From contig NZ_JAHRED010000003.1 of the NCBI RefSeq assembly GCF_019084045.1, positions 124,001 through 188,000 on the forward strand: 64,000 bases of DNA. The letters are read 5' to 3'. Shown here in pieces: positions 21,124 to 64,000 of this stretch (position 1 is its first letter; every line of letters starts with the position of its first letter). The notes below the pieces were generated by a model, which made no database searches, was not told the origin of the DNA, and saw only the letters and a program-made list of their open reading frames with translations. Source of the DNA: Paeniglutamicibacter quisquiliarum. Its GTDB lineage: Bacteria > Actinomycetota > Actinomycetes > Actinomycetales > Micrococcaceae. Position numbers and translations under genes: made by a program.

Positions 21124-22485
21124 ATGACCGAAACACTTCTGGCCGTTGACGCCGAGACGCTCCCGCAGACCCGCCACCTTGCCACCTCCATCCCCGGCCC
21201 GCGCTCCACGGCCCTGCACGCCGAACGCACCGCACAGGTGACCAACGGCTTCGGCATCACCCTGCCGGTCTTCGTGGCCCGCGCGGACGGCGGAATCGTC
21301 GAGGACGTCGACGGCAACCGGCTCATCGACTTCGCCTCCGGCATTGCCGTGACCTCGCTGGGCGCCAGCAACAAGCGCGTGGCAGAACGCGTTGCCGCGC
21401 AGCTGGACGCCTTCACCCACACCTGCTTCATGGTCACCGAATACGAATCCTTCACCCAGGTCTGCAAGTGGCTCAACGCCAACACCCCCGGCGACTTCGA
21501 CAAGCGCACCGGGCTGTTCTCCACCGGCGCCGAGGCCGTGGAAAACGCCGTCAAGATCGCCCGTGCCGCCACCGGACGGCCCAACGTGTTGGTCTTCGAC
21601 GAGGCCTACCACGGCCGCTCTCTGCTTACCATGGCCATGACCGCCAAGGTCAACCCCTACAAGCTGAACTTCGGTCCGCTTCCCGCGGAGATCATCCGCG
21701 CCGCCTCGGCCAACCCGCTGCGTCCCGCCGAGGGCCTCGAGTCCGGCGCCGAAGCGGCACTGGAATCCGTGGAGGCCACCATCCTGGAACACGGCGCGGA
21801 CACCTTCGCCGCCATGGTCATCGAGCCGATCCAGGGCGAGGGCGGCTTCATCGTCCCGGCCGCCGGCTTCATCCCGGGCCTGCGCAAACTCGCCGACAAG
21901 TACGGCATCGTGCTGGTCATCGACGAAATCCAGGCCGGCATGGGCCGCACCGGAACGCTCTTCGCCTCCGAACACGAGGGCGTTGCGGGGGACATGATCC
22001 TCACCGCCAAGGCACTGGCCAACGGCGTCCCGCTCTCCGCCGTCACCGGACGCACCGAGCTGATGAACGCGCCGCACGCCGGGGGACTGGGCGGCACCTA
22101 TGCCGGAAACCCGCTGGCCTGCGAGGCCGCGCTGGCGGTCTTCGAGCAGTTCGAGGACGGATCACTGCTGGCCAACGCCCGCCACATCGAGGCGGTCGCC
22201 CGCGAAATCCTTGAGCCGTTGCTTTCCTCCACCGGCATCGTTGCCGAGGTCCGCGGCCGCGGCGCCATGCTCGCCATCGAACTGGCCGACGCCGGGACCC
22301 TGGCCCCGCGCGCGGATAAGGCCAAGGAGATCTCCGCCGCCTGCCACGCCGCCGGTGTGCTCACCCTGACCTGCGGCACCCACGGCAACGTCGTGCGCCT
22401 GCTGCCCCCGCTGGTCATCGGCGAGGAGCTGCTGCGCGACGGGCTGGACGTGCTCGCCCAGGCAATCACCGACGCCGCCAACTAG
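21124..22485 (+). CDS. gabT: 4-aminobutyrate/5-aminovalerate transaminase
   Basis: A 453-residue PLP enzyme of class III (omega) aminotransferases. VFDEAYHGRS, VIDEIQAGMGRTG (PLP-binding Asp) and LTAKALANGVPLSA (Schiff-base Lys) are the core motifs. GGTYAGNPLACEAAL is typical of GABA:2-oxoglutarate transaminases. The enzyme would convert GABA to succinic semialdehyde, or 5-aminovalerate to glutarate semialdehyde. The glutaryl-CoA dehydrogenase directly downstream favours the C5 substrate here. It is first in the rightward operon. Confidence 0.88.
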   Translation: MTETLLAVDAETLPQTRHLATSIPGPRSTALHAERTAQVTNGFGITLPVFVARADGGIVEDVDGNRLIDFASGIAVTSLGASNKRVAERVAAQLDAFTHTCFMVTEYESFTQVCKWLNANTPGDFDKRTGLFSTGAEAVENAVKIARAATGRPNVLVFDEAYHGRSLLTMAMTAKVNPYKLNFGPLPAEIIRAASANPLRPAEGLESGAEAALESVEATILEHGADTFAAMVIEPIQGEGGFIVPAAGFIPGLRKLADKYGIVLVIDEIQAGMGRTGTLFASEHEGVAGDMILTAKALANGVPLSAVTGRTELMNAPHAGGLGGTYAGNPLACEAALAVFEQFEDGSLLANARHIEAVAREILEPLLSSTGIVAEVRGRGAMLAIELADAGTLAPRADKAKEISAACHAAGVLTLTCGTHGNVVRLLPPLVIGEELLRDGLDVLAQAITDAAN

Positions 22486-22527: not shown

Positions 22528-23721
22528 ATGACCCTCACCATGCACGACCACGAAACCCACCAGTTGGACCCGGCGGATTTGATCAACTTCGATGCGCTGC
22601 TCACCGCCGAGGAGCTCGCGCTGCGTTCCAAGGTGCGGACCTTCGTCGACGAGGCCATCAAGCCGAACATCGCCGGTTGGTACGCCGACGCGGTCTTCCC
22701 GCTGGAGATCGTCCCGGAAATGGCCAAGCTCGGCCTGCTGGGCATGCACTTGAAGGGCTATGGCTGCGCCGGGGGCACCGCGGTGGAGTACGGATTGGCA
22801 GGTTCCGAGCTGGAGGCAGGGGACTCGGGGCTGCGCACCTTCGTCTCGGTGCAGGGTTCGCTGGCCATGAGCGCGATCTACAAGCACGGCTCCGAGGAAC
22901 AGAAGCAGGAGTGGCTGCCGAAGATGGCGGCGGGGCAGGCCATCGGCTGCTTCGGGCTGACCGAGCCCACTGCCGGCTCTGACCCCTCGGCGATGAAGAC
23001 CTTCGCCCGCAAGGACGGGAACGACTGGGTCATCAACGGCACCAAGCGCTGGATCGGGCTGGCAAACGTCGCCCAGGTCGCGGTCATCTGGGCACAGACC
23101 GACGAGGGCATCCGCGGTTTTGTGGTCCCCACCCAGACCGCCGGGTTCAAGGCGACCCCGATCGAGCCCAAGCTCTCGATGCGCGCCTCCATCCAGTGCG
23201 AGATCGAGCTGACCGACGTGCGCCTGCCCGCGACCGCGGTGCTGCCGAACGTCACGGGGCTAAAGGGACCGTTCTCCTGCCTGAATGAGGCCCGCTACGG
23301 CATCATCTGGGGCGCCATGGGAGCGGCCCGCGACTCCTTCGAGGATGCCCTGGCGTACTCGCAGCAGCGCATGCAGTTCGACAAGCCGCTGGCCGGGTAC
23401 CAGATGACCCAGCAGAAGCTGGTGGACATGGCCCTGGAAATCAACAAGGGCTACCTGCTGGCCCTGCACATCGGGCGCATGAAGGACGCAGGCACCCTGG
23501 ATCTGCACCAGATCTCGGTGGGCAAGCTCAACAACTGCCGCGAGGCCATCAAGATCGCCCGCGAGGCCCGCACCATCCTTGGCGGCAACGGCATCACCCT
23601 GGAGTACTCGCCTCTGCGCCACGCCAACAACCTGGAATCGGTGCGCACCTACGAGGGCACCGACGAGGTCCACACCCTCATCCTCGGAAACAAGCTCACC
23701 GGCGTCCCGGCCTTCCGCTAA
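22528..23721 (+). CDS. glutaryl-CoA dehydrogenase-type acyl-CoA dehydrogenase
   Basis: A 397-residue FAD enzyme. It carries CFGLTEPTAGSDPSAM and the C-terminal RTYEGTDEVHTLILGNKLTG, where the Glu in TYEGT is the catalytic base of this group. The glutaryl-CoA branch is suggested by overall similarity of the N- and C-terminal regions. The expected reaction is glutaryl-CoA to crotonyl-CoA plus CO2, passing electrons to ETF. GGAG precedes ATG 22528. It lies between gabT and the aldehyde dehydrogenase. Other short-chain acyl-CoA dehydrogenases remain possible. Confidence 0.83.
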   Translation: MTLTMHDHETHQLDPADLINFDALLTAEELALRSKVRTFVDEAIKPNIAGWYADAVFPLEIVPEMAKLGLLGMHLKGYGCAGGTAVEYGLAGSELEAGDSGLRTFVSVQGSLAMSAIYKHGSEEQKQEWLPKMAAGQAIGCFGLTEPTAGSDPSAMKTFARKDGNDWVINGTKRWIGLANVAQVAVIWAQTDEGIRGFVVPTQTAGFKATPIEPKLSMRASIQCEIELTDVRLPATAVLPNVTGLKGPFSCLNEARYGIIWGAMGAARDSFEDALAYSQQRMQFDKPLAGYQMTQQKLVDMALEINKGYLLALHIGRMKDAGTLDLHQISVGKLNNCREAIKIAREARTILGGNGITLEYSPLRHANNLESVRTYEGTDEVHTLILGNKLTGVPAFR

Positions 23722-23753: not shown

Positions 23754-25214
23754 ATGACCGAAACCATGACGCACACCGACACCGTTCCGCTGCGCCTGCT
23801 CATCGACGGGCAATGGATAGACGGCACCGGTGCGGGCCTGGAATCCACCTCGCCCGCGAACCCCGGGCACGTGGTCGCCGCCGGAGGCACCGCCACGGTG
23901 GACAACGTGCGCACCGCCGTGGCGGCCGCGCGTGCGGCGGCCACCGAATGGGCCGCAACCCCGATGGCCGAACGCGGGGGATACCTGGCCCGTGCCGCGG
24001 CGATCATCACGGCCAACGCCGACGCGTGGGGCGGCGAGCTGGCCCGCGAGGAAGGAAAGACCGCAGCGGAGGGCACCGGAGAGGTGCTGCGCGCCGCGCA
24101 GATCCTTTCTTATTACTCCGCCGAGTCCGACCGCCTGGCCGGGGAGGTCTTCTCCTCCCCGCGCCGCGGCGAGCAGATCCTGGTGACCCGCAAACCACTG
24201 GGCGTCGTTGGAGTCATCACCCCGTTCAACTTCCCCATCGCCATCCCGGCCTGGAAGATCGCCCCGGCACTGGTATTCGGCAACACCGTGGTGTGGAAGC
24301 CCGCCTCCACCGTGCCGCTGCTGGCCATGCGCCTGACCCAGGCCCTCGTGGAGGCCGGCCTGCCGGCCGGCGTGTTGAACCTCGTCATCGGATCCGGTGC
24401 GCTGGGCAACGAGATCGTGAACCACCCGGAGCTTGACGGGCTCACCTTCACCGGCTCCACGGGAGTGGGCCGCAAGCTCGCCGCCGCAGCCGCCGGACGG
24501 GGCGTGCCGATCCAGGCGGAAATGGGCGGCAAGAATGCCTCGGTCGTGCTCGAGGACGCGGATCTTGAGCTCGCCGTGGAACAGGTGCTCCTCGGCGCCT
24601 TCCGCTCCACCGGGCAGAAGTGCACCGCCACCTCGCGGCTGATCCTGCAGGAGAAAATTGCCGATGCGTTCCTGGCGCGCCTGTGCCAACGCCTCGGCGA
24701 GTGGAAAACCGGGGACCCGACGGATTCCTCCGTGCACATGGGGCCGGTGGTTTCGGGTGCGGCCGCGGAGCAGATCCGTGCGGGCATCGCCGCCTCGATC
24801 GCCCAAGGTGCTCGCCTAGCCTTCGAGGGCGATATCGCGGGCCTGGGGGACGCCTTCGTGGCCCCGACCGTCCTGGAGCTGCCGACCGGGGAGAACAATG
24901 CCTGGCGCGAGGAGTTCTTCGGTCCCGTGCTGGCCGTGCGCCGGGCGCCAACCACCGAGCAGGCGTTCGAGCTGGCCAACGATTCGGAATATGGACTGAG
25001 CTGTGCGCTGTTCACCCGGGACCTCTCCAAGGCGCTGGCGGCCATGGAACAAATCGATGTGGGCGTCCTGCACGTGAATTCGGAATCGGCCGGAGCGGAC
25101 CCGCACGTGCCCTTCGGCGGGGCCAAGAAGAGCGGCTACGGGCCCAAGGAACAGGGCGGTGCGGCGAAGGAATTCTTCACCCACACCACCACGGTGTACC
25201 TGCGCGGAGCGTAG
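23754..25214 (+). CDS. NAD(P)+-dependent semialdehyde dehydrogenase
   Basis: A 486-residue aldehyde dehydrogenase. E256 (QAEMGGKNASVV) is the general base and C290 (STGQKCTATSR) the nucleophile. The sequence around C290 resembles the 2-oxoglutarate-semialdehyde dehydrogenase group more than classical GabD. In this operon it would oxidise glutarate semialdehyde to glutarate. GAGAGGA lies upstream of the ATG. A large hairpin follows, so the HAD gene downstream may have separate or reduced transcription. Confidence 0.85.
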   Translation: MTETMTHTDTVPLRLLIDGQWIDGTGAGLESTSPANPGHVVAAGGTATVDNVRTAVAAARAAATEWAATPMAERGGYLARAAAIITANADAWGGELAREEGKTAAEGTGEVLRAAQILSYYSAESDRLAGEVFSSPRRGEQILVTRKPLGVVGVITPFNFPIAIPAWKIAPALVFGNTVVWKPASTVPLLAMRLTQALVEAGLPAGVLNLVIGSGALGNEIVNHPELDGLTFTGSTGVGRKLAAAAAGRGVPIQAEMGGKNASVVLEDADLELAVEQVLLGAFRSTGQKCTATSRLILQEKIADAFLARLCQRLGEWKTGDPTDSSVHMGPVVSGAAAEQIRAGIAASIAQGARLAFEGDIAGLGDAFVAPTVLELPTGENNAWREEFFGPVLAVRRAPTTEQAFELANDSEYGLSCALFTRDLSKALAAMEQIDVGVLHVNSESAGADPHVPFGGAKKSGYGPKEQGGAAKEFFTHTTTVYLRGA

Positions 25215-25349: not shown

Positions 25350-26228
25350 ATGAGCGTAGAGACCGGCATCGAGAACATTTCCACCATCCTGGTCATTGGC
25401 GCGGGCACCATGGGACGGCAGATCGCGATGACCGCGGCCCTGGCCGGGTACGCGACCACCATCCAGGACATCTCCGCCGACGGCCTCGCCGCGGCGCGCG
25501 CCGAACTCGAGGGCTGGGCGGCCTCGCGGGTGGCCAAGGGCAAGCTGGAGAAGGCTGCGGCCACCGCGGCCCTGGACGCACTGGCCTACAGCACCGACCT
25601 GGACGAGGCTGCCGCCAACGCCGACTTCGTCATCGAGGCCGCCACCGAGCGCCTGGAGATCAAGACGGCGATCTTCGAAAAGCTCGGCGTGCTGGCCCCG
25701 GCCCACGCCATCCTGGCCACCAACTCCTCGACCCTCGGCTCCTCCAAGGTCGCGGCGGCCACCGGTCGGCCGGCACAGGTCTGCAACATGCACTTCTTCA
25801 ACCCGGCCCTGGTCATGAAGTGCGTCGAGGTGGTCCGCCACGGGGAAACCAGCGACGCGACCGTGGCCACCACCATGGAGCTGGCCCGGCGCCTGGGCAA
25901 GGAGCCGGTGCTGATCAACCGCGAGATCCCCGGCTTCATCGCCAACCGCCTGATGGGCGCGATCCAGCGCGAGGCGCTGTTCCTGGCCGATGAGGGCATT
26001 GCCAGCATCGAGGACATCGACACCACCGCCCGCACGGCGCTGGGCCACCCGATGGGTCCGTTTGCGCTGATGGACATGGTCGGGCTGGACGTCATCGACT
26101 TCATCGCCCAGGCCACCCACGCGGAGACCGGCGCGGCCGAGGACGCCCCCAACGAGCGGATCGCGGCACTGGTGGCCGAGGGCAAGCTGGGCCGCAAGTC
26201 CGGCGCCGGGTTCTACCACTACGCCTAG
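25350..26228 (+). CDS. 3-hydroxyacyl-CoA (3-hydroxybutyryl-CoA) dehydrogenase
   Basis: A 292-residue NAD-dependent enzyme of the HAD family. ILVIGAGTMGRQIA is the dinucleotide motif, NMHFFNPALVMKCVEVV carries the catalytic His, and IPGFIANRLMGAI is the conserved helix. ATG 25350 has GGAG 7 nt upstream; a GTG at 25311 is possible. It would take 3-hydroxybutyryl-CoA from crotonyl-CoA hydration to acetoacetyl-CoA, completing the glutarate branch. The crotonase it requires is not in this operon. Confidence 0.87.
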   Translation: MSVETGIENISTILVIGAGTMGRQIAMTAALAGYATTIQDISADGLAAARAELEGWAASRVAKGKLEKAAATAALDALAYSTDLDEAAANADFVIEAATERLEIKTAIFEKLGVLAPAHAILATNSSTLGSSKVAAATGRPAQVCNMHFFNPALVMKCVEVVRHGETSDATVATTMELARRLGKEPVLINREIPGFIANRLMGAIQREALFLADEGIASIEDIDTTARTALGHPMGPFALMDMVGLDVIDFIAQATHAETGAAEDAPNERIAALVAEGKLGRKSGAGFYHYA

Positions 26229-53665: not shown

Positions 53666-54046
53666 CCGCCCCTCGCCCGAGTGTCCACGGATAAGAATCC
53701 TCGGATCGGTTTTGCCTCATGGTCGGGTGGTTGTGCGCACCCGTTGAATTTTACCTTCGGAAATGAAGTTTATATCCCCATTCGCATTGCTGGGAAGGCC
53801 GGTGCGGTTGGTTTTTGCATGCAGGAAGTTGAGTATTCCGCCCCGAAGTGAATGATCTTTGAGGTGAAAGGGCCATATATGGCCGTAGATGTCAGTTTGG
53901 CCCGCTGTGGAAACTTGTCGGAGGGCTTGCGCTCTAAATCATTCACGGATACAGTTTTTATTTACCAGAGGCCGCGTGATGTACATCACAAGGGTGCGTG
54001 GCTCTGTTCACTCGACCAAACCACCGAAATCCAACTAGGAGACGTC
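53666..54046 (+). promoter_or_regulatory. control region of the permease-P450 operon
   Basis: About 380 bp, AT-richer than its surroundings, with no supported gene. It contains GGCCATATATGGCC (53871-53884), a perfect 14-bp palindrome. It also contains GTGATGTACATCAC (53976-53989), which with flanks reads cGTGA-N6-TCACA (53975-53990), one base from the GlxR/CRP consensus TGTGA-N6-TCACA. Catabolite control plus a specific regulator is inferred. Confidence 0.5.
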
Positions 54047-55564
54047 GTGTCCATAGAGTCACGTAAAGTACCTGAGGCCTCATCGCATGTGCATGACGAG
54101 GACGCCGCCCACCTGGCATCTCTCGGCTACGAGTATGAAGCCCAGTTCAAGCGAGAGATGACGTTCTGGGGGAACGTCTCGCTGGGGTTCACTTACTTAT
54201 CGCCCGTGGTGGGAATCTATTCGCTCTTTGCGATCGCATTGGGCACCGCGGGGCCCCCGATGTTTTGGTCGTTGCTCATAGTTGGAGCCGGGCAGATGTT
54301 CGTCGCCATGGTCTTTGGTGAAATCGTGTCAAACTACCCGGTCGCCGGCGGGGTCTACCCGTGGTCGCGACGCCTGTGGGGCCGCAAGTGGGGCTGGATG
54401 AATGGCTGGGTTTACCTTGTCGCGCTTCTGACGACGATCGCCTCCGTGGCATACGGCGCAGGCCCGTACCTTGCGGCCTTCCTCGGAATGGAAAGCAGCG
54501 TCGACGCGACCATCCTCGCCGCGCTGGTCATTATCGCGCTGGCAACTTGCCTCAACCTCCTCGGCACCGGCGTACTGAACAAGGTCGCCATGCTCGGCCT
54601 GATCGCGGAACTCGGTGGTGCAGTTGTCGTGGGCCTCTGGTTGATTATCGGCCACCGCAATCATGACCTGGGCGTGCTCTTTGAGACCTTCGGCGCCGGT
54701 GAGGGTTCCGACTACTTCGTGGCCTTCGCAGCAGCCGGATTGATAGGTATCTTCCAGTACTACGGCTTTGAGGCCTGCGGCGACGTGGCGGAAGAAGTCC
54801 CGAACCCCGGTCGCACCATTCCCAAGGCCATGCGCATGACCATTTACATAGGGGGAGCGGCGGCGATGTTCGTCTGTCTCTCGCTCATCCTCGCCGTCCC
54901 CGACTTCGGGGCAGTGATTTCAGGTGCCGACTCCGACCCGCTCGTGGGAGTCCTGATGGCGGCATTCGGCCCTGTTGGTTACAAAGTCGTGCTCGGGGTG
55001 GTGCTGGTTTCCTTCGTCTCGTGCGTCTTGAGCCTCCAGGCTGCTGCGAGCCGCCTGACCTACTCCATGGCCCGCGACGGAATCCTGCCATTCAGTTCCC
55101 TGCTCAGCCGATTCAGCGATCGCCGCCACGTACCGCCGTACGCGCTGCTGATCGCCGGTGTGTTTCCCGCGCTGGTCGTGATCGGTTCCAAGATTTCCGA
55201 AGATGCACTGGTCGCCATCATCTCCTTCGCGGCCATGGGAATGTACCTGGGCTTCCAAATGGTCGTGCTGGCCTCACTGCGGGCCAGGCTCAAGGGCTGG
55301 AAGCCGGCAGGCAAGTACCAGCTAGGTCGCTGGGGCATTCCGGTCAATGTGATGGCACTCCTGTGGGGGGTCTTGGGCATGATCAACATGGCCTGGCCAC
55401 GGACACCGGAAGCCGGATGGTTCGCCAACTACATCGTCTTGATTTCCTCAATCTTCGTCCTGGGAATCGGAGGACTCTATCTTGCGCTTCGCAAACCCCA
55501 CCTCAAGGGGAACGCTCCCGCCGCGGATGCCTGTAGCGCTCTCGAAACTGTCGGCGGAAGCTAA
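54047..55564 (+). CDS. APC-family amino acid/amine permease
   Basis: A 505-residue inner-membrane carrier with about 12 segments. FKREMTFWGNVSLGFTYLSP and VSNYPVAGGVYPWSRRLWG are typical of the GABA/choline-like APC branch. The GTG at 54047 is preferred because AGGAGA lies 6 nt upstream; a much longer frame from 53852 runs through the control palindromes. It starts the P450 operon and probably imports the amine substrate or its precursor. Confidence 0.85.
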   Translation: MSIESRKVPEASSHVHDEDAAHLASLGYEYEAQFKREMTFWGNVSLGFTYLSPVVGIYSLFAIALGTAGPPMFWSLLIVGAGQMFVAMVFGEIVSNYPVAGGVYPWSRRLWGRKWGWMNGWVYLVALLTTIASVAYGAGPYLAAFLGMESSVDATILAALVIIALATCLNLLGTGVLNKVAMLGLIAELGGAVVVGLWLIIGHRNHDLGVLFETFGAGEGSDYFVAFAAAGLIGIFQYYGFEACGDVAEEVPNPGRTIPKAMRMTIYIGGAAAMFVCLSLILAVPDFGAVISGADSDPLVGVLMAAFGPVGYKVVLGVVLVSFVSCVLSLQAAASRLTYSMARDGILPFSSLLSRFSDRRHVPPYALLIAGVFPALVVIGSKISEDALVAIISFAAMGMYLGFQMVVLASLRARLKGWKPAGKYQLGRWGIPVNVMALLWGVLGMINMAWPRTPEAGWFANYIVLISSIFVLGIGGLYLALRKPHLKGNAPAADACSALETVGGS

Positions 55565-55635
55565 AAACGCGAAGCCACTATCAGCCGATGGGCGACCGCC
55601 CAAGAAGACCAGTACCACCACGAAAGGATCGCACC

Positions 55636-56847
55636 ATGAGTGTCGAAACCGCCCCGAACCAACTCAACGTCCCTTATCTCGACATCTCGGATCCGAGCTT
55701 CGCTATGCAGTCCGAAGAGCTCCGCAACGCCCGCGAGGCCAGCTGGTATGCAAAGACCAACTACGGCATCGCCGTGTTGCGCTACGAGGAAGTCAGCAAG
55801 CTGCTCAAGAGCCCCAAGCTCATCCAGGGCAGTGCCAAGTGGCCCGCCCACAACGGAGTGCATGGCGGACTATTCTTTGACTGGTGGACCAAGAACCTGC
55901 TCGTATTGGAGGGAGAAGACCACCACCGGATCCGGCGTCTCCTCAACCCGGCCTTTTCCCCGCGGCTGATCAAGGACCTGGTTCCACGCTTTCAGGCGCT
56001 GGCGAACGAACTTATTGACGAATTCATCGACAGTGGCTCCTGCGAGTTCATCGGAGACTTTGCGGAACCGTACGCCACTCGCGTGCTGACCATCTTGCTG
56101 GGCATACCGGAAAGCGAATGGCCGACCATTGCCCGGCTTGCCTCCACCATTGGACTGGCACTTGGCGTCACCTTCAAGCAGGACCTGGACAAGGTCGACG
56201 CGGCGGTGGCCGAGCTGTATGACTACGCCGAAGACCTCATCAAGGACCGCCAAGCAAATCCGGGCGAGGACTTTGTCTCCCGGCTGGTCCTGGCCAGCCG
56301 GGATGGCGACAAGCTCAACGACGAGGAATTGCGCAACGCGCTGGTGCTGCTGATTTTCGGCGGCATGGACACCACCCGCAACCAGTTAGGGCTTGCCATG
56401 CAATCCTTCATGCGGAACCCGGAGCAGTGGGAACTGTTGTCGGCGCGGCCTGAGCTCGGCGCCAAGGCCGTCGAAGAGGTCATGCGCATCAACCCAACCG
56501 TCACCTGGGTAACCCGCGAGGCAGTTGAGGACTTCACCTATCAGGGACTGGAGATTGCCGCCGGCACCACCGTGCACCTTTTCACCCAAGCTTCCGGCAC
56601 CGATCCTCTCGCATTCCCCAACCCTGAACTGGACCTGCTTGGTGAACACCCCGCCCACTACGGGTTCGGCGGTGGAGTGCACCACTGCCTCGGCCACTTC
56701 GTGGCCCGCGCCGACATGAGCGAGGCACTTCCGCTTTTGGCCGGCCGCCTGGGCAATCCGCACCTGACCGGAGGGGACGAATGGCTGCCCGACTCGGGCA
56801 ACACCGGTCCGATTCGGCTACCCATCGGTTTCACCAAGCGCATCTAG
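55636..56847 (+). CDS. cytochrome P450, class I, possibly CYP151-like
   Basis: A 403-residue soluble P450. HHRIRRLLNPAFSP is the C-helix, LLIFGGMDTTRNQ the I-helix (with Thr), EEVMR the ExxR motif, and FGGGVHHCLGHFVAR the heme loop with the axial Cys. It is followed by its own ferredoxin and reductase, the arrangement of class I systems. The known actinobacterial mor/pip loci (CYP151) have the same partners plus a glutamine-synthetase-like gene and attack morpholine, piperidine and pyrrolidine. That substrate assignment is by gene order only. Confidence 0.88.
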   Translation: MSVETAPNQLNVPYLDISDPSFAMQSEELRNAREASWYAKTNYGIAVLRYEEVSKLLKSPKLIQGSAKWPAHNGVHGGLFFDWWTKNLLVLEGEDHHRIRRLLNPAFSPRLIKDLVPRFQALANELIDEFIDSGSCEFIGDFAEPYATRVLTILLGIPESEWPTIARLASTIGLALGVTFKQDLDKVDAAVAELYDYAEDLIKDRQANPGEDFVSRLVLASRDGDKLNDEELRNALVLLIFGGMDTTRNQLGLAMQSFMRNPEQWELLSARPELGAKAVEEVMRINPTVTWVTREAVEDFTYQGLEIAAGTTVHLFTQASGTDPLAFPNPELDLLGEHPAHYGFGGGVHHCLGHFVARADMSEALPLLAGRLGNPHLTGGDEWLPDSGNTGPIRLPIGFTKRI

Positions 56848-56899
56848 GCCCCGCCTGCCTTTCCACATCACCGCCAGCACCAAGGAAACGAGCTTCACC

Positions 56900-57091
56900 A
56901 TGTCACAGATCACCGTCGACCGTAAACTATGCGACAACCACGGCCAGTGTGCCATCGCCGCCCCGAAAGTCTTCTCGATGAACGACGAAGGAGTCCTTGA
57001 ATTCGAGGAAATCTTCGACGATGCATTGCTTGACGAAGTCGAGGAAGCCATCGACGTGTGTCCGGTCCAAGCCATCTTCGTGAAGGACTAG
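56900..57091 (+). CDS. [3Fe-4S] ferredoxin
   Basis: A 63-residue ferredoxin. Ligands are C11 and C17 (CDNHGQC) and C54 (VCPVQ). The missing fourth Cys marks the 3Fe-4S type used by actinobacterial P450s. It carries electrons from the next gene's product to the P450. Confidence 0.92.
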   Translation: MSQITVDRKLCDNHGQCAIAAPKVFSMNDEGVLEFEEIFDDALLDEVEEAIDVCPVQAIFVKD

Positions 57092-57093
57092 CC

Positions 57094-58323
57094 ATGGGCC
57101 AGCGGATCATCGTCGCCGGGGCTTCGCTCGGGGGACTACGCGCCGCCGAACAGCTGCGGGCAACCGGCTGGGAGGGCGAAATCCTGGTCATCGGGGAGGA
57201 AAACCATCCCCCCTACAACCGGCCACCGCTCTCCAAGGAGGTCCTGGCCGCACCCGGAACCCCGAAAGAGGTACTTTCCAAGCTGGCCTTCCGGCCCCGG
57301 CGCAGTGCCACCGGAATCCAGTGGCGCTTGGGAACCCGCATCACTGCTTCCAACCTCGCCGGCCGTACCATCACCCTTGACGACGGGGAGGAAATCAGTT
57401 TCGACGGGTTGGTGATTGCCACGGGGCTGCGTCCGGCGCGGGTTGCGGTCCCCGGTCCCCTGGACGGGCGTCACGTCTTGCGCAGCATCGACGATGCCCT
57501 GGCCCTGCACACGGTGCTGTTGCCAGGAACCCGGGTCGGGGTCATCGGCTCGGGGTTCATCGGATGCGAAAGCGCGGCCACCGCGGCCTCGCTGGGCTGC
57601 GCGGTGACCCTCGTGGAGGGACGCACCGGCCCCATGGAGCGACCTCTGGGTTCGGCACTTTCCGCCGGGGTGCGGGAGATGCTCTCGCGCCGCGGTGTGG
57701 ACTGCCGGGAGGCGGTCTCCGTAGTCGCCTACAGGGGCGATGGATCCTGCACCGGGATCGAGCTTTCCGATGGCCGCACGGTGTCTGCAGAGGTGATCAT
57801 CGAGGCCGTGGGATCCCATGCCAATGTCGAATGGCTGCAGGGAAACGGACTGGACCTCGGCGACGGCGTGGAATGCGACGGGCACCTGCGCGTCCTGGCC
57901 GCCGACGGGCAACCGGTGCCATGCGTTGTCGCCATTGGTGACATTGCCCGTTACCCCGATGTCCGTAACGGGCTTCCCGCCCGGCGAGTGGAGCACTGGG
58001 CGACGCCCACCGACACCGCCAAGATTGCTGCCCCTGCGCTGGTCGCCGGGATCGCCGGCCGGACGCCGGCAGAGGCCCCAGCCCCGCTTCCGTCTTTCTG
58101 GACCGACATCTTCGGCACCCGGATCAACGGAGTCGGTTCCCCTGCCGACGCCGAGGAAACCCGAATCCTCGAGGGCGACCCCGGCAAGCCCCAGGAGGGG
58201 GTCGCGGTGGGCTACTACCGCGGGAACACGCTCATAGGCGTCGTCAATGCCGGCCTGCCAGCCTCGCGGCACTTGCATTACCGCCAGCTGGTGCTCGACG
58301 CCGGCGCACTAGTCACCAACTAA
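57094..58323 (+). CDS. ferredoxin reductase (FAD, NADH)
   Basis: A 409-residue flavoprotein of the rubredoxin/ferredoxin reductase type. IIVAGASLGGLRAAEQLR binds FAD, GVIGSGFIGCESA binds NADH, and CVVAIGDIAR is the late FAD motif. A C-terminal reductase domain follows. It starts 2 nt after the ferredoxin stop. Completes the class I P450 chain. Confidence 0.92.
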   Translation: MGQRIIVAGASLGGLRAAEQLRATGWEGEILVIGEENHPPYNRPPLSKEVLAAPGTPKEVLSKLAFRPRRSATGIQWRLGTRITASNLAGRTITLDDGEEISFDGLVIATGLRPARVAVPGPLDGRHVLRSIDDALALHTVLLPGTRVGVIGSGFIGCESAATAASLGCAVTLVEGRTGPMERPLGSALSAGVREMLSRRGVDCREAVSVVAYRGDGSCTGIELSDGRTVSAEVIIEAVGSHANVEWLQGNGLDLGDGVECDGHLRVLAADGQPVPCVVAIGDIARYPDVRNGLPARRVEHWATPTDTAKIAAPALVAGIAGRTPAEAPAPLPSFWTDIFGTRINGVGSPADAEETRILEGDPGKPQEGVAVGYYRGNTLIGVVNAGLPASRHLHYRQLVLDAGALVTN

Positions 58324-58351
58324 GACTTCCAGTAGAAACGAGTTGAGTCCC

Positions 58352-59767
58352 ATGACCTTGCAAGCACTGAGAACCGAATCCGACGCCACGCTGGACCGTG
58401 AAGCCTTTTCCCGGCACCAGGCCCGCAACCTCGCACTCGAGGTCGTCAAGGACCTTGCGGCGAAGATCGAGGCCGCCGGGGTCGAGTACATCTATTACGC
58501 GCTGCCCACCATCGGATCGCGCGTCGTGGCCAAGATGGTTCCCGCCAACCACTTCCGCCGCAACCTGGAAAAGGGAATCTGTTTCCACCGCACGGCGCTC
58601 TCCGACCTGCAAAACGACCGTCATGGAAACTTGATCGGCGGCGGCATCGAGGCCCGCGAGTTCTGGGCCCTGCCGGAGCCAGAATCCTTTGTGGTGCTCC
58701 CCTGGGACACCTCGGTCGCCCGAATCTTCTGCACCGCCTATGAGCCCCCGCACCTGCCGGAGGTCGGCGGCCGTCCGCTGGCCATCGACACGCGTTCACT
58801 CTTGGCCCGGACCCACGCCGCGTTCACTGAACGCACCGGATTCGAAGTGCGCTCGGGCACCGAACCGGAAATGACCTGGGAAGGACCCGGCCTCGAGGTC
58901 GTCAAGCGGCCCGGCTCCAGCCCCGCCTACCAGGTCGAGAATCTCGAGCGCATGCGCCCGATCTACAAGAAGCTTGTCACCTACTCCAAGGCCATGGGCC
59001 TGGACATGATCGAGGGCGACTACGAGGACGACGGGCAGCTCGAACTGAACTGGATGTACGACCGCGTGGAGAACACCGCGGACCGGCTGGTCACGTACCG
59101 ACAGATCTGCAAGCAGGTAGCCCGCGAATTCGGGGTCACCGCCTCCTTCATGCCCAAGCCCTACAACGGCCAGATGGGCAATGGCTGCCACCACAACCTC
59201 AGCCTCTGGGACGGGGACACCAACGTCATCGAGGACGCTGGACGTCTGGAACTGCACGTTTCGGAGACCGCCCGGCACGCCATTGGCGGCATGCTGGCCC
59301 ACGCCCAGGGATCCATGGCCGTGATGGCCTCCACCGTGAACTCCTACAAACGGTTCTGGGACGCCGGGCAATTCGCGCCTTCCACTGCCAACTGGGGCCT
59401 TGACTCGCGCGGCTGCCTAATCCGCATCTCCGCCAACGGCCGGATGGAGTACAGGGTTCCGGACGCAGCGGTGAACCCCTATTTGTCCCACACGTTGCTG
59501 ATCGCCTCGATGGAGGACGGGATCAACCGCAAGCTTGAACCGGGCGCTCCCGACGAGGCCTGCGACAGCGCGCCGGCGCTCGGCGCCCAGTTGCCACTGA
59601 CCCTCGGCGATGCCATCGGGGCGTTCGTCTCGGACACCTACCTGACCTCGCAGCTGCCGGCGGACCTGGTTTCGATCTACACCAAGCTCAAAGAAGAGGA
59701 ATGGGCCCGCTACTGCGGCTCGATCACCGAATGGGACCGCGAAATGTACTGGGAGACGATGCCGTAA
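58352..59767 (+). CDS. glutamine synthetase-like gamma-glutamylamide ligase
   Basis: A 471-residue GS-fold ligase. EGDYEDDGQLELNW, MPKPYNGQMGNGCHHNLSL and MEYRVPDAAVNPYLSHTLL match the ammonia/ATP/glutamate motifs. The GSGMH motif reads GNGCH. Such variants (PuuA, IpuC, aniline AtdA1) join amines to the gamma-carboxyl of glutamate. With two downstream deglutamylases it probably makes a gamma-glutamyl amine. Its stop overlaps the next ATG by 1 nt. True glutamine synthesis is unlikely in this context. Confidence 0.85.
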   Translation: MTLQALRTESDATLDREAFSRHQARNLALEVVKDLAAKIEAAGVEYIYYALPTIGSRVVAKMVPANHFRRNLEKGICFHRTALSDLQNDRHGNLIGGGIEAREFWALPEPESFVVLPWDTSVARIFCTAYEPPHLPEVGGRPLAIDTRSLLARTHAAFTERTGFEVRSGTEPEMTWEGPGLEVVKRPGSSPAYQVENLERMRPIYKKLVTYSKAMGLDMIEGDYEDDGQLELNWMYDRVENTADRLVTYRQICKQVAREFGVTASFMPKPYNGQMGNGCHHNLSLWDGDTNVIEDAGRLELHVSETARHAIGGMLAHAQGSMAVMASTVNSYKRFWDAGQFAPSTANWGLDSRGCLIRISANGRMEYRVPDAAVNPYLSHTLLIASMEDGINRKLEPGAPDEACDSAPALGAQLPLTLGDAIGAFVSDTYLTSQLPADLVSIYTKLKEEEWARYCGSITEWDREMYWETMP

Positions 59768-60489
59768 TGACAACGCTCAAACTGGCCTGCATCGACGCGG
59801 TCGCACCCCCACTCTTTTCGTTGATCGATGACAACGGCCAGCGCACCGGCTACGAGCCGGCCGCCGCCGAGCTTGTTGCCTCGCGCATGGGCAGGAACAT
59901 CGAGTGGGTCGTCATGGGATGGGACGAGATGCTGCCCTCGGTGCGCGACCACCAGGTGGATGCGGTGTGGTGCGGACAGGGCATCATTCCCGAACGCCAG
60001 GCCATCGTGGATTTCACCCGCCCGTATGCGGTCTTCGATGAAACGGTACTGGTGCGCAAGGACGACCCTGCACGAACCCCGGCTGACCTGGCCGGGTATC
60101 GGGTGGCCGCCATCGACGGCAGCGCCAACATGGCATTGGCACGAACCTTCGAAGGGGCGATCCTCGTTCCCTTCAGCGGGGACACCGTTTACGAAGACAT
60201 GCTGGCGGCGGTCGCCGACTCGAGCGTCGATGCCATGGTCGATGACGACGTGGTGCTGGTGCCGCTGGGGGACGACCCGCGCTACGACGTGGCCTTCACC
60301 GTGGCAACCCGCAACCCGTGGGGGATCGGGGTCGCCAAGGACAACCTTTTCCTGCGCGAGGAACTCAACGTGGCCCTGGCTGCCGTGATTGCCGACGGCA
60401 GCCTGCGCGAGGTGTGGGACACCTGGATGCCAACGCTCGACTTTCCCTTGGGCCACAGCATCGAGGCAATCGCGGGCAGCCGGGCATGA
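59767..60489 (+). CDS. solute-binding-protein fold (SBP family 3) without signal peptide
   Basis: A 240-residue protein. LKLACIDAVAPPLFSLID...GYEPAAAELVASRMGR through GQGIIPERQAIVDFTRPYAVFDETVLVRK is a classic family-3 amino-acid-binding fold from residue 3. No hydrophobic N-terminus or lipobox exists, and the upstream in-frame sequence lies inside the GS gene and adds none. No ABC permease or ATPase is near. It is therefore cytosolic: an amine/glutamyl-conjugate binder, or an enzyme as cyclohexadienyl dehydratases show for this fold. Confidence 0.83.
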   Translation: MTTLKLACIDAVAPPLFSLIDDNGQRTGYEPAAAELVASRMGRNIEWVVMGWDEMLPSVRDHQVDAVWCGQGIIPERQAIVDFTRPYAVFDETVLVRKDDPARTPADLAGYRVAAIDGSANMALARTFEGAILVPFSGDTVYEDMLAAVADSSVDAMVDDDVVLVPLGDDPRYDVAFTVATRNPWGIGVAKDNLFLREELNVALAAVIADGSLREVWDTWMPTLDFPLGHSIEAIAGSRA

Positions 60490-61256
60490 CGGGGGGTCCA
60501 GGGCCCGCCCGACGCCCGCTGATAGGCGTCCCGGGCATGTGGTCGGCCAAGGTGCAGGGCATGCGCTTCGCGGGGGCTGCAGTGGCCGTGGCCGTGCTGG
60601 CCGGCATTGACCGGGCCGGAGGTGAACCCGTTGTCCTGTTTCCAGGCAGCAGCGAGTCGGCGGCCGACCAGCTCGCCCGGCTGGACGGAGTGGTCATAGC
60701 CGGCGGGGCCGACGTCGACCCGCGTCGCTATGGAAGTGAGCCGGACGAGCACTATTGGCCGGCCGACTACCCGGGACAGGACGACTACGAAGCCGGCCTC
60801 CTGCAGGCCTGCCTCGAATCAGGAATCCCGACCCTGGCCATCTGCCGGGGCATGCAATTACTTAATGTCGTCCACGGCGGAACGCTTGTGGGCCATTTGG
60901 CGCCCGGCGAGATCCAGCACCGCGGCGCCCAGCACCCGGTAACCTGCGAGCCCGGCACGCTCCTTGCCTCGGTCTTGGGGCATGCCCCCGTGTGTACCTC
61001 CTCGTACCACCACCAGTCGGTCGACCGCATCGGAGCGGGGCTGCGGGTTGCCGCCACGGCACCGGACGGAGTCATTGAGGCATTGGAGCTTCCGGACGCT
61101 TCGCTGCTGGCCGTCCAATGGCATCCCGAGGACCTGGCCGAGGCCTCGGCCACCGACCACGCACTATTCAGCTGGGTCGTCGAGGCAGCCGGGACCTTCC
61201 GTGCCGCGGCGTCCTCGCGCGAGCAGACGAACACCTTGGAGGTTTTGGGTTTATGA
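60486..61256 (+). CDS. PuuD-like class I glutamine amidotransferase (gamma-glutamyl hydrolase)
   Basis: A 256-residue hydrolase. C120 in LAICRGMQLLNVV is the nucleophile and VQWHPEDLAE carries His and Glu. GVVIAGGADVDPRRYG is typical of gamma-glutamyl-GABA hydrolases. ATGA overlap with the SBP-like gene. It would free the product from gamma-glutamate. Confidence 0.88.
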   Translation: MTGGPGPARRPLIGVPGMWSAKVQGMRFAGAAVAVAVLAGIDRAGGEPVVLFPGSSESAADQLARLDGVVIAGGADVDPRRYGSEPDEHYWPADYPGQDDYEAGLLQACLESGIPTLAICRGMQLLNVVHGGTLVGHLAPGEIQHRGAQHPVTCEPGTLLASVLGHAPVCTSSYHHQSVDRIGAGLRVAATAPDGVIEALELPDASLLAVQWHPEDLAEASATDHALFSWVVEAAGTFRAAASSREQTNTLEVLGL

Positions 61257-62086
61257 GTACCGATCCACGAGAAGACCGGGTATTGACCCTGGAAGAAGTC
61301 ATCCCGGAAGGGTTCGACTTGCTTCCCCCGGATGCTCCACTGGTGGCAGTGGTGGTCTCATTGACTTTCCCCGGCATGGTTGGCGAAAGCCACAGGATCA
61401 TGCGCGACTTCACTCGCAGTGCCTTCGACCAATTGCTGGAAAGCGGGGCCCGCGCTATCTTGATCGACAGCTCCGCGGCGGATCCTCGGGCGGCGCTGGC
61501 CGCCGAGGAAGCGGACGCTGTGCTGTTTCTCGGCGGCGGTGACGTGGACGGGTCGCTGTACGAACTTCAGGGCCCGATCCCCAAGGCCTACGGTGTGGAC
61601 CGCACTGCCGATGAATTCTGCATCGCCCTGATCCACCGGACCCTGGAGAAGGACCAACCGCTGCTTGCCATCTGCCGGGGATCCCAGCTCTTGAACGTGG
61701 CTCTCGGCGGGACATTGGTGCCGGACATCGTTCCCTCGACCTTGCACCAGGGTCAATCCGGCCAGCCGATGTTCCTCGACGAAGGGGTGACTCTTGCCGA
61801 GGGCAGCAAGATCCGCGGGATCCTGGGCCGTGGGCGAGTCACCGTGCGTTCCGGTCATCACCAGGCCGTGGACCGCGTGGCCGCGGACTTGATCGTCAGC
61901 GCCGTGGCCGACGACGGGATCGTGGAGGGCACCGAACACCCCGGGAAAACATGGGCCGTGGCCGTTCAATGGCATCCGGAAGACCGCGACGGATCAGCGG
62001 AGGACCGCCGCGCGATCTTCGGCGCCCTGGTGGATCAGGGCATCCTGCGTCGCCGGCAAGTCGCGCAGCTCGCGCAGTGGGCCTGA
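61253..62086 (+). CDS. second PuuD-like class I amidotransferase
   Basis: A 277-residue paralogue. LLAICRGSQLLNVALGG has the nucleophile Cys, SGHHQAVDRVA follows, and AVQWHPEDRDG carries His and Glu. The N-terminal part diverges from its neighbour (FLGGGDVDGSLYE instead of IAGGADVDPRRYG). The start overlaps the previous stop. The pair may act on two different conjugates or as a heteromer. Confidence 0.87.
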   Translation: MSTDPREDRVLTLEEVIPEGFDLLPPDAPLVAVVVSLTFPGMVGESHRIMRDFTRSAFDQLLESGARAILIDSSAADPRAALAAEEADAVLFLGGGDVDGSLYELQGPIPKAYGVDRTADEFCIALIHRTLEKDQPLLAICRGSQLLNVALGGTLVPDIVPSTLHQGQSGQPMFLDEGVTLAEGSKIRGILGRGRVTVRSGHHQAVDRVAADLIVSAVADDGIVEGTEHPGKTWAVAVQWHPEDRDGSAEDRRAIFGALVDQGILRRRQVAQLAQWA

Positions 62087-62126: not shown

Positions 62127-62831
62127 CTAGGCGGGAACCAACAGGGACAAACCCAGGTGGGGGACTTCCAAGGGCACGATCCGGCTTTCGCTGGGCGTGG
62201 CCTTGATCCTTTCCCCCACCAGGTAGGCACCGGAGTTGCCGATGATGACCCGATCGCTGGAGTTCAAAAGGGCCGCATGGCCGGGGATCGAACGCAAGGT
62301 GGGAAGAAAAATGTCTTCCAGTGCCCGCACCGTCACGTCATAGCCGGCAACACCCGCAAATTCCCCATGGATTTCGAACGGGGCGGTGTGCGTGAGGATG
62401 TACTCGTCCGATCCCAGGTAATCGACGTACGGTCCCCAGATCGTTACTTCGCCGGTTCTCTCCGCGGCGCTGAAAAAGGGAAGATGCTCATAGTCGTAGA
62501 ACCTCTCCCCGCCCGGATCAAGGTCAAATACCAACTTTTCGGCCCCGTTGGGTCCAGGGGTCCACCATTCGAGGACGCCTTGTCCCGCGCTCATCCGAGC
62601 CGAGTAAAAAGTTGCCCCGGACCCAACGGCGTACGGATGCCGCTGCAGGAAATCGGAGGCCAGGGTCTTCAGGCCGGCCAGATCGTCCTTGGTGACAAGT
62701 GCGCTCGGGGCTACTTCTCGTGTGAGCAGTTCGGTAACTGCGGCGGCCATAGCGTAGGTAGCCGTCGACGCCTCGTTAAACCAGCTGGAAATGTTTCCCA
62801 AGGCTGCAACTGTTGGTTGGGGGAGGCTCAT
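62127..62831 (-). CDS. stand-alone Cache-like sensor protein
   Basis: A 234-residue protein. FYSARMSAGQGVLEWWTPGPNG, WGPYVDYLGSDEYILTHTAPFEIHGEFAGVAGYDVTVRALEDIF is arranged like a PDC/Cache ligand domain (Tyr/Trp pocket and final Asp). There is no signal peptide, membrane segment or output domain. It overlaps the GntR stop (ATGA). It is probably a cytosolic ligand sensor working with that regulator. Convergent with the amidotransferase gene. Confidence 0.68.
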   Translation of the reverse strand: MSLPQPTVAALGNISSWFNEASTATYAMAAAVTELLTREVAPSALVTKDDLAGLKTLASDFLQRHPYAVGSGATFYSARMSAGQGVLEWWTPGPNGAEKLVFDLDPGGERFYDYEHLPFFSAAERTGEVTIWGPYVDYLGSDEYILTHTAPFEIHGEFAGVAGYDVTVRALEDIFLPTLRSIPGHAALLNSSDRVIIGNSGAYLVGERIKATPSESRIVPLEVPHLGLSLLVPA

Positions 62832-63577
62832 GGGGTTTCCTTCACGTCTGTTGCATAGCTCAGGGCCAACTTCGTATCAATGAGATGGTGCGTGCTGCGC
62901 CGGATATGGTCGATCACCAATTGTTGCCCTTGTTGGCTGTGATTTTCGGACACTGCACGCACCAGCGCGAGATGTTCCGCGGTGGCCCGCTCCGCATCAA
63001 ACTCATCGACCAACGGAGACCAGAGAACCTCCACCGTTTCGGCCTGCAACCGGATTTCGGCGTTCGCCAATCTGGTGGATTGGGCAGTCACCGCCAATTC
63101 AATGTGAAAGCGACTGTCGGCACGTGCCCGCGCCTGGGCGTTTTCGGCCAAGACCAATGAGCGGGCCATATCCTGCAGTCTCTCCAATTCATGCGGCTCG
63201 GCCCGGTCGCAGGCCAGGCGGACGGTGGCGGCGGCTATGGCCGACTGTTCGTCTCCGAGATCCCGGATCTCGGCAATCGATGTGGCCATTAGCCACTTGC
63301 GCATGGCATCGAGCTGGAATTGCGGTTGCTTCAGAATGAATGTCCCGCCGCTGCGACCGCGTCTGGTCTCGACGATACCTTGGTCGCGCAAGACAGCCAG
63401 GGCGTCACGCAGGGTTGCCGCGGCCACGCCGAACATCTCAGACATCTCGATCTCGTTGGGCAGGCGTTCCCCCACGCGCAGCATGCCGAGCGTGATGGCC
63501 TTGGAAATGCGGTTGACGATGGCATCGGAACGTTCCAGATCTGGCAAGGAGCGATAGATCTGCGACTGGAAAGACAT
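62828..63577 (-). CDS. GntR-family regulator, FadR/FCD subfamily
   Basis: A 249-residue regulator. LPNEIEMSEMFGVAAATLRDALAVLRDQGIVETRRGRSGGTF is the winged helix. The FCD domain includes DSRFHIELAVTAQ and a late His pair (HHLID). ATG 63577 is preferred over a TTG four codons upstream. It is coupled to the Cache-like gene and is the likely local regulator of the P450 operon; GntR regulators also accompany the known pip and mor loci. Confidence 0.86.
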   Translation of the reverse strand: MSFQSQIYRSLPDLERSDAIVNRISKAITLGMLRVGERLPNEIEMSEMFGVAAATLRDALAVLRDQGIVETRRGRSGGTFILKQPQFQLDAMRKWLMATSIAEIRDLGDEQSAIAAATVRLACDRAEPHELERLQDMARSLVLAENAQARARADSRFHIELAVTAQSTRLANAEIRLQAETVEVLWSPLVDEFDAERATAEHLALVRAVSENHSQQGQQLVIDHIRRSTHHLIDTKLALSYATDVKETP

Positions 63578-64000
63578 GTTCAAGGCCAAACCGGGTACTC
63601 CAAGCCAAACAAACGGAAATTCAGGCCAGTCTATCGGCTAGATCCGGTGAACCGTGGAACGCGAGTCCCCAGATGGAGAAGAAAACCGGATTGACGCGCA
63701 CCGAGATGGAAAGCAAGCAAAGCGGGGCGAACTTCAACAATTCGTCCCCGGGTGCGTAGCCCGTCATTCGAGGCCCGGAGCATGGATGTCGAGGTCCGCA
63801 TGGAGGACCCGGACAGGGAGTCGGATCTGTATGGGGATGTCCGGCATGCCTGCGACGGGGAGCACGCCGTGGAACACGTTCCTGGATCCGGTGGTTGCGG
63901 AATGCGCGATATTACCTCTTTAGCAATGGCTCCTGGCTGGATGCATCTGCCGCGCTCCGCCTTCCCCTGGCCATCGACACCAAGGCCCATCCGATCACTG
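63578..64000. other. right-end stretch; possible gene tail at the edge
   Basis: The first 300 bp hold the GntR promoter and no supported gene. On the minus strand, bases 64000-63912 read VIGWALVSMARGRRSAADASSQ then EPLLKR and stop. This could be the end of a gene entering from the right, but 29 codons are too few to judge. Confidence 0.3.

Follow-up and report, generated by a model that had tools for sequence, protein, structure and literature searches.

The 64,000-nucleotide stretch of Paeniglutamicibacter quisquiliarum DNA analysed here (contig NZ_JAHRED010000003.1, positions 124,001 to 188,000; hereafter the window) comes from a genome of 4.44 Mb and carries a cassette in which a cytochrome P450 system adjoins genes for a glutamine synthetase (GS)-like protein and two PuuD-like hydrolases. 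Eight co-directional genes at 54047-62086, proposed in a first-pass annotation made from the sequence, are borne out by their coordinates, open frames and Pfam matches (Table 1). The tight coupling reported for the last four is also real, as the genes for the GS-like protein, a substrate-binding protein (SBP), and the hydrolases C26a and C26b overlap successively by 1, 4, and 4 nucleotides. Two further genes on the minus strand (62127-63589), encoding a Cache protein and a GntR/FCD regulator, converge on the eight and had not been included in that annotation. Together the two groups make up a cassette of ten genes, with the eight as one of its arms. The cassette P450 and that of Paeniglutamicibacter sulfureus As4PL share 99% identity.

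A second module, likewise absent from the first-pass annotation, is located at 16.8-26.2 kb of the window, approximately 30 kb upstream of the cassette. In addition to the genes listed in Table 1, it encodes a permease and a PucR regulator, the latter called by likeness.

Table 1. Cassette genes, upstream elements and glutarate-type module of the window (positions are those of the window)
Feature	Position	Strand	Basis
APC-type amine/amino acid permease	54047..55564	+	PF13520 5.6e-48; nearest NCBIfam model urea-carboxylase permease, below cut-off
Cytochrome P450, CYP151-like, putative cyclic-amine monooxygenase	55636..56847	+	PF00067; FGGGxHHCxG haem motif in alignment
Ferredoxin, presumably of 3Fe-4S type	56900..57091	+	CxxHxxC...CP; C11, H14, C17, C54 invariant in 73 sequences
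FAD ferredoxin reductase	57094..58323	+	PF07992 6.3e-52
GS-like gamma-glutamyl-amine ligase (putative)	58352..59767	+	PF00120 1.3e-70
Cytosolic SBP_bac_3-fold protein without signal peptide	59767..60489	+	SBP_bac_3; AF2 pLDDT 93.1
Peptidase_C26 (PuuD-like) hydrolase 1 (C26a)	60486..61256	+	PF07722 2.7e-52; NCBIfam PuuD model below cut-off
Peptidase_C26 (PuuD-like) hydrolase 2 (C26b)	61253..62086	+	PF07722 2.6e-43; NCBIfam PuuD model below cut-off
Stand-alone dCache protein, probably intracellular, amine-sensor type	62127..62831	-	PF22673 3.3e-07; AF2 pLDDT 94.6
GntR/FCD transcription factor	62828..63589	-	PF00392 and PF07729
Promoter-like element TTGCGC-17-TACAGT	53927..53955	+	Upstream of permease; by-eye reading, putative function
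Palindrome GTGATGTACATCAC, which we take to be CRP/GlxR-like	53976..53989		Perfect GTGAN6TCAC upstream of permease
CoA-transferase III, glutarate/succinate type	18294..19508	+	NF052585 2.4e-104, below cut-off; SUGCT 9br6 2.8e-88, after 10uh and 4ed9
GABA/5-aminovalerate transaminase (GabT/DavT-like)	21127..22485	+	NF004714 623 bits, cut-off 639
Glutaryl-CoA dehydrogenase (GcdH)	22528..23721	+	3swo 1.3e-162, 3sf6 1.5e-157; NCBIfam models below cut-off
Aldehyde dehydrogenase, putative glutarate semialdehyde dehydrogenase (DavD-like)	23754..25214	+	Aldehyde dehydrogenase models shown all below cut-off
3-Hydroxyacyl-CoA dehydrogenase	25350..26228	+	NF006722 and NF004474, below cut-off

Distribution and conservation of the cassette

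Species genomes were scanned with a pattern derived from an alignment of 13 P450 sequences, and the best 80 of the 372 related stretches obtained were kept as loci. Their gene content was read by tblastn with the window proteins (E 1e-10); some loci end at contig edges. The cassette is widespread and not peculiar to the host genome. Matches to the GS and SBP genes are present in 75 and 74 of the 80 loci, to the GntR and Cache genes in 71 each, and to those for the ferredoxin, permease, C26a, C26b, and ferredoxin reductase in 70, 66, 61, 60, and 50, respectively. Among the 60 loci of at least 18 kb, all ten genes occur together in 28, and the nine genes other than that for the reductase in 36. 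The core order P450-ferredoxin-(reductase)-GS-SBP-C26 is found repeatedly across families, and hosts include Paeniglutamicibacter, Arthrobacter, Brevibacterium, Streptomyces, Mycolicibacterium, Nocardioides, Nesterenkonia, Actinomadura, and four Halomonadaceae. The gene set is present in many Actinomycetota; in Halomonadaceae it is present but rearranged. The Halomonadaceae cluster with Streptomyces ossamyceticus in the P450 tree (support 99/87), which suggests that the cassette P450 has moved between the two phyla.

Three genome samples were also searched directly. Of 99 genomes comprising the host and its relatives, 11 have P450 matches of at least 59% identity, and these 11 are also the only ones with the SBP. 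Five of the 394 genomes in a class sample carry the SBP, and P450 matches above 650 bits are confined to four of these five; a further 27 genomes carry a weaker P450 (12 at 518-579 bits, 15 lower) and no SBP at the cut-off. Four of 396 genomes in a phylum sample, including the host, carry the SBP. Two loci from this sample differ in completeness: L146 is near-complete (reductase, ferredoxin, P450, Cache, GntR, GS, SBP, one C26, and an aldehyde dehydrogenase), and L147 is partial (GntR, P450, GS, and SBP). The remaining genome of the four has its SBP gene at a site without GS (L145). Scoring in the class and phylum samples was limited to seven candidates per genome, so that misses are possible. 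The recurring core order and the co-occurrence of P450 and SBP in identical genomes argue for an association beyond chance, and a chance neighbourhood was rejected.

A gene for an NAD-dependent glutamate dehydrogenase is located near the cassette in several Mycolicibacterium and Rhodococcus loci (L075, L080, L085, L086, and L089, at approximately 3.5-6.7 kb, and L057, at the start), which is consistent with glutamate turnover.

The P450, the ligase and the hydrolases

The window P450 is 61% identical to the P450 of plasmid pGKT2 from Gordonia sp. KTR9, which we take to be CYP151C, and 57% identical to a P450 of Paracoccus sp. TOH. Ferredoxin and reductase genes and a GS-like gene adjoin it, as in the CYP151 neighbourhood. 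Placement in a clade of unrelated substrates, which the first-pass annotation had named as refuting its reading, was not clearly seen, although two P450s from ectoine-like clusters fall in the Micrococcales part of the tree. Judging from its family, the window P450 would oxidise a cyclic secondary amine. The ectoine-like clusters are carried by Streptomyces plasmids (L024 11382-15141, L027 11357-15092), where the related P450 with its ferredoxin and reductase is accompanied by ectA, ectB, ectoine synthase, an adenylation enzyme, and a carrier protein; these clusters perhaps make a modified ectoine-like product.

The mycobacterial loci of PipA and MorA (CYP151), as described at second hand, share with the window a P450, a ferredoxin or reductase, a GntR-type regulator, and a GS-like gene; the kinship of their P450s with that of the window is indirect. 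Relative to these second-hand descriptions the window adds the cytosolic SBP, two C26 hydrolases, the dCache sensor, the permease, and the nearby glutarate module. A six-gene morpholine operon in Mycobacterium sp. RP1 is mentioned in PMC6351609, and the P450 homologues of Gulosibacter are approximately 52-53% identical to PipA/MorA according to PMC9477822.

The pGKT2 xplAB region contains consecutive GntR, Cache, P450, and GS genes, an order also found in Streptomyces and many Mycolicibacterium loci. It differs from the cassette in that GS shares one open frame with a reductase (an 855-codon stop-to-stop frame; L021 10461-17472), followed by a flavodoxin-P450; we take these two proteins to be XplB-like and XplA-like, respectively. 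No SBP, C26, or ferredoxin match was found in 25 kb of this region. Genes of the RDX type thus look as though they had been grafted onto a truncated amine cassette.

Nine residues of the GS-like protein that we take to be catalytic (E174, E176, E228, E234, H283, R337, R361, R367, and E369) are present in 76 of 76 sequences. The nearest solved chains are 7cql, a type III glutamate-ammonia ligase, and 9qur, a glutamate-methylamine ligase. All NCBIfam GS models stay below their cut-offs; the best of them is the one for type III glutamate-ammonia ligase, while that for gamma-glutamylputrescine synthetase reaches 195 where 650 is required. The best-scoring model would suit an alternative scheme in which GS assimilates released ammonia, the C26 proteins are general amidotransferase relatives, and there is no gamma-glutamyl cycle. 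Such a scheme also matches the view taken in Gulosibacter, where molinate brings about overexpression of BioI, a P450, and of its reductase (log2FC above 6), together with a neighbouring GS that the authors interpret as nitrogen assimilation (PMC9477822). We nevertheless consider it very improbable. The genome has three GS genes, of which the two elsewhere both score higher than the cassette gene, and ammonia assimilation was rejected as the main role of the latter on this ground. One of its two nearest solved chains is a methylamine ligase; GS, SBP, and at least one C26 hydrolase occur together in 55 of the 60 loci of at least 18 kb; and in Chromohalobacter a pair of unrelated class-I glutamine amidotransferases (GATases) takes the place of the C26 proteins. 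By analogy, the GS-like protein would be a dedicated gamma-glutamylating enzyme distinct from housekeeping GS, and in our own reading the overexpressed Gulosibacter GS may likewise be a ligase that caps amines with glutamate.

Putative catalytic residues of the hydrolases are similarly conserved: C120, H213, and E215 of C26a are invariant in 63 sequences, as are C142 and H242 of C26b in 61 sequences, with E244 in at least 90%. Five C26-type matches are present in the genome, and both strong ones are the cassette genes. Across the 80 loci, at least two C26 matches occur anywhere in the locus in 53, one in 16, and none in 11, four of these last being the Halomonadaceae. The two GATase genes that replace the C26 genes in Chromohalobacter (L091) are accompanied by an aldehyde dehydrogenase and a permease of a different type. 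Paired GATase or C26-type genes recur despite the change of subfamily (L091 9254-13213; L022 5085-6589), and therefore both copies may be functionally required.

The cytosolic binding protein and the regulatory genes

The binding protein was described in the first-pass annotation as lacking a signal peptide, and we agree. The window protein starts MTTLKLACID, already at strand 1. For 74 relatives the start nearest to that of the window was chosen, and frames were also extended to the furthest upstream start codon; in none of 75 sequences does the longest N-terminal extension plus the first 30 residues contain a hydrophobic stretch, and one of 75 passes the hydrophobicity cut when residues 1-60 of the proteins with the chosen starts are considered. 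The model has an amino-acid SBP fold. Its best Foldseek matches are 4zv1/4zv2, ancestral Arg/Gln-binding proteins, and the list also includes SocA (glucopine or deoxyfructosylglutamine), the opine-binding NocT, and AncCDT-1. Residues C8, C69, R77, D159, and D160 are invariant in 75 sequences. R77 and D160 align with the Arg and Asp of the amino-acid clamp of AncQR, and presumably serve as such; C69 is Ala in AncQR. The cassette protein thus shares the fold and these two residues with AncQR, GlnH, and SocA, and differs from them in having no signal peptide, no ABC partner in the cassette, and two conserved cysteines, and in the position of its gene between those of a ligase and a hydrolase.

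A role as part of an ABC importer was rejected, since there is no signal and none of the ten window proteins is an ABC component; ABC ATPases are located farther from the cassette in some relatives. Where the GS and SBP genes share a strand, they overlap in 60 of 73 pairs. In one genome (G359; L129 254-7146) a dimethylformamidase-like large subunit, GS, a signal-less SBP, and a class-I GATase are encoded in a row; the P450s of this genome match the cassette P450 family only distantly (best 178.5 bits), and its SBP retains C69 and has Ser in place of C8. Because the trio occurs there without a P450 of the family, it is the ligase and hydrolase, and not the P450, to which this case ties the SBP, and a gamma-glutamyl conjugate gains support as its ligand. 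A GCV_T protein is also encoded there, ahead of the trio. The protein may bind the glutamate head of the conjugate and hold it or pass it on, or may itself be an enzyme; of the assignments made here this is the least certain. We considered a dehydratase akin to cyclohexadienyl dehydratase, AncCDT-1 being among the close folds, and a disulfide or metal site formed by C8 and C69.

In the minus-strand arm, the GntR and Cache genes overlap in 49 of 71 same-strand pairs. The best Foldseek matches of the Cache model are PctD, the histidine kinase domain 3lic, MkcA, McpX, mmHK1S-Z3 (3lib), McpU with putrescine, and CqsR with serinol; PacA is also among the 50 matches listed, and the amino-acid receptors PctA, PctC, Tlp3, and CtaA follow with E-values close behind. 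In an alignment to PctA, W119 is kept in 66 of 72 sequences, F/Y120 in 72, Y135 in 68, and D165 in 72. Position 117 carries M or L in 63 of the 72 and R in a single sequence; the corresponding R126 of PctA holds the carboxylate of the amino acid (PMC10104139). A hydrophobic N-terminal stretch is found in one of 73 Cache proteins (L085). Fold and pocket pattern suggest that the Cache protein is probably an intracellular sensor of the amine type. A 2023 preprint describes an intracellular dCache_1AM sensor beside a transcription factor in Actinobacteria, with GntR given in a figure legend and no target named in the part accessible to us (PMC10104139). The Cache/GntR pair fits that description, and thus the cassette is probably a target of the reported sensor and regulator.

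Upstream of the permease gene, several relatives from Paeniglutamicibacter and Arthrobacter have an element like TTGCGC-17-TACAGT, as read from an alignment of the window with 11 loci. GTGAN6TCAC occurs within 250 bp upstream of the permease gene in 10 of the 64 loci tested, compared with 0.020 per kb over whole loci; in nine Micrococcaceae loci it lies 52-111 bp before the permease start and in one other 43 bp. The pattern was seen twice in the window against 1.01 expected. The palindrome is a candidate CRP/GlxR-like site or operator of the GntR protein.

A putative route for cyclic secondary amines

We propose, with a probability of about 0.62, that the cassette is a regulated set for growth on small cyclic secondary amines, the likeliest being piperidine or a close C5 ring. 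What was observed are the genes, their conservation, their predicted folds and their residues, and from these each chemical step is predicted. The permease would import the amine, and the intracellular dCache protein would sense it and signal to its GntR/FCD partner. As expected from its family, the P450, served by the ferredoxin and reductase encoded next to it, would hydroxylate the carbon next to nitrogen, and the hemiaminal would open to an omega-aminoaldehyde. A free omega-aminoaldehyde spontaneously recloses to the cyclic imine, which is why capping would be needed; PuuA caps putrescine with glutamate, and by analogy the GS-like ligase would attach the gamma-carboxyl of glutamate to the freed primary amine. 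An aldehyde dehydrogenase, in-operon in some relatives and elsewhere in the genome of the host, could then yield the gamma-glutamyl omega-amino acid, whose glutamate head group the cytosolic SBP would bind. One or both C26 hydrolases would free glutamate and 5-aminovalerate, and the upstream module could take the latter through glutarate and glutaryl-CoA to crotonyl-CoA.

This scheme resembles the Puu pathway for putrescine (PuuA, PuuB, PuuC, and PuuD) in its GS-like ligase, aldehyde dehydrogenase step, C26 hydrolase, and amine permease. In contrast to the FAD amine oxidase PuuB, the cassette has a P450 system and a predicted cyclic secondary amine substrate; no PuuB-type FAD amine oxidase was detected with Pfam among the ten window proteins, of which the ferredoxin reductase alone matches FAD oxidoreductase models. 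A PuuC-like aldehyde dehydrogenase is part of the Puu cluster, whereas the window cassette has none. The aniline and 1-naphthylamine systems (AtdA1, NpaA1) share a GS-like ligase, a GAT-like hydrolase, and an oxygenase, but employ a Rieske dioxygenase on an aromatic amine rather than a P450 on what is probably an aliphatic ring, and an SBP, present in the cassette, is unmentioned in the accessible part of PMC11335346.

These aromatic amine degraders glutamylate before oxygenation (PMC11335346), and a similar order can be envisaged here, in which the GS-like enzyme glutamylates the secondary amine, the P450 oxidises the conjugate, and the acylated hemiaminal opens to a gamma-glutamyl aldehyde. 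This order would account for the tight GS-SBP-hydrolase coupling, yet it appears unlikely: we know of no GS-type ligase that acts on a cyclic secondary amine. Moreover, MorA with its ferredoxin and reductase is reported to oxidise free morpholine (quoted in PMC9477822), and therefore ring opening probably precedes capping. The first-pass annotation had proposed a P450 amine pathway combined with a gamma-glutamyl cycle, in which the amine is masked while being oxidised. The kinship of the P450 and the conserved residues of GS and C26 uphold this core idea, which is largely right, and capping during oxidation is part of our scheme as well; the regulators and glutarate module were missed, and masking before the P450 step is less likely, so that the order of capping and P450 oxidation was probably reversed.

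The C5 preference derives from the glutarate module. Homologues of the transaminase (at least 45% identity), GcdH (at least 50%), and the DavD-like aldehyde dehydrogenase (at least 55%) occur inside 27, 28, and 22 of the 80 loci, at least one of the three in 35 and at least two in 24, and the DavD-like gene adjoins DavT and GcdH homologues in relatives. With part of the module next to the cassette in these 35 loci, piperidine-like C5 rings are indicated. We assign GcdH with strong confidence; the coupling of the module to the cassette is plausible from its position. In seven cassette-bearing genomes of the genus, which are related and not seven independent events, davD lies 11.5-30.4 kb from the P450 gene. 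Aldehyde dehydrogenase genes are present in 57 of the 80 loci compared with approximately 9% expected of random 20-kb stretches, a rough yardstick based on 22 matches in one genome; 19 of 80 loci hold an in-operon gene of at least 50% identity to the Rhodococcus copy, that copy counted.

The main substrate of the same machinery might instead be pyrrolidine, morpholine, piperazine, a methylated amine, or a plant alkaloid ring. For the DavT-like gene the top-scoring assignment is GABA transaminase, the GS-SBP-hydrolase trio is found with dimethylformamidase, and a truncated cassette adjoins xplA-like genes. Paracoccus sp. TOH is cited as a piperazine degrader in a reference title in PMC5533781, and the annotation of its plasmid lists, with the related P450, two GS, two aldehyde dehydrogenases, a gamma-glutamyl-GABA hydrolase family gene, and a type 1 glutamine amidotransferase. 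The GcdH and glutarate-type CoA-transferase genes beside the cassette are best fitted by a C5 skeleton, and we regard these other substrates as possible yet rather doubtful.

Several observations weigh against growth on a C5 cyclic amine or against individual steps of the scheme. No aldehyde dehydrogenase was detected with Pfam among the ten window cassette proteins, and the in-operon enzyme of relatives has no close counterpart in the host genome (best match 43%). None of the three module genes is found at the cut-offs used in 45 of the 80 loci, several of which are short, and davD is present in 14 of 15 genomes of the genus compared with seven for the cassette; the module therefore has other jobs too. 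In Gulosibacter, where molinate is first converted to azepane-1-carboxylic acid, the second P450, PipA, showed no significant overexpression on molinate (PMC9477822). For ten of the 27 genomes with a weaker P450 the locus was retrieved, and each lacked any other core cassette gene; these P450s are 39-54% identical to that of the window. The two P450s of ectoine-like clusters lie, on a long branch, inside the Micrococcales part of the tree. An SBP copy with both cysteines is located beside HipA and two-component genes (L145 9503-10375) with no GS match within 20 kb, contrary to a strict tie of SBP to GS. Finally, the best solved matches of the Cache protein by sequence profile are the amino-acid receptors PctA and PctC, Y112, a residue of the amino-acid-sensor motif, is kept in 72 of 72 sequences, and some hydrophobic 19-residue stretch is found in 18 of 72 Cache proteins (one within the first 60 residues).

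P450 loci for piperidine and morpholine with a GS gene are already known, and it is the cytosolic SBP family and the intracellular amine sensor that lift the cassette above the routine. No description of the full gene set was found in the open-licence library searched, including papers on P450 with gamma-glutamyl pathways and on CYP151; subscription papers were mostly outside the search, and this is weak evidence of novelty. More tentatively, at somewhat less than even odds, the GS-like ligase, the cytosolic SBP, and the gamma-glutamyl hydrolase may form a portable intracellular trio that serves varied amine-releasing front ends, such as P450 ring opening or the dimethylformamidase of G359. 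The SBP family would then be a new intracellular class, a carrier or a cysteine-dependent enzyme for gamma-glutamyl conjugates, and with the dCache sensor, two ligand-binding modules that are normally extracellular would have been drafted into the cytosol.

Cyclic secondary amines are frequent in alkaloids, drugs, herbicides, and industrial solvents. To our knowledge, the piperidine and morpholine P450 loci have come with no clear route after ring opening and no reason for their GS-like gene, and the cassette offers candidates for both. It also links a reported intracellular amine sensor to a putative pathway and singles out a family of cytosolic binding proteins. In addition, it suggests that a truncated copy of the cassette was the site into which an xplAB-type region for degrading explosives was built.

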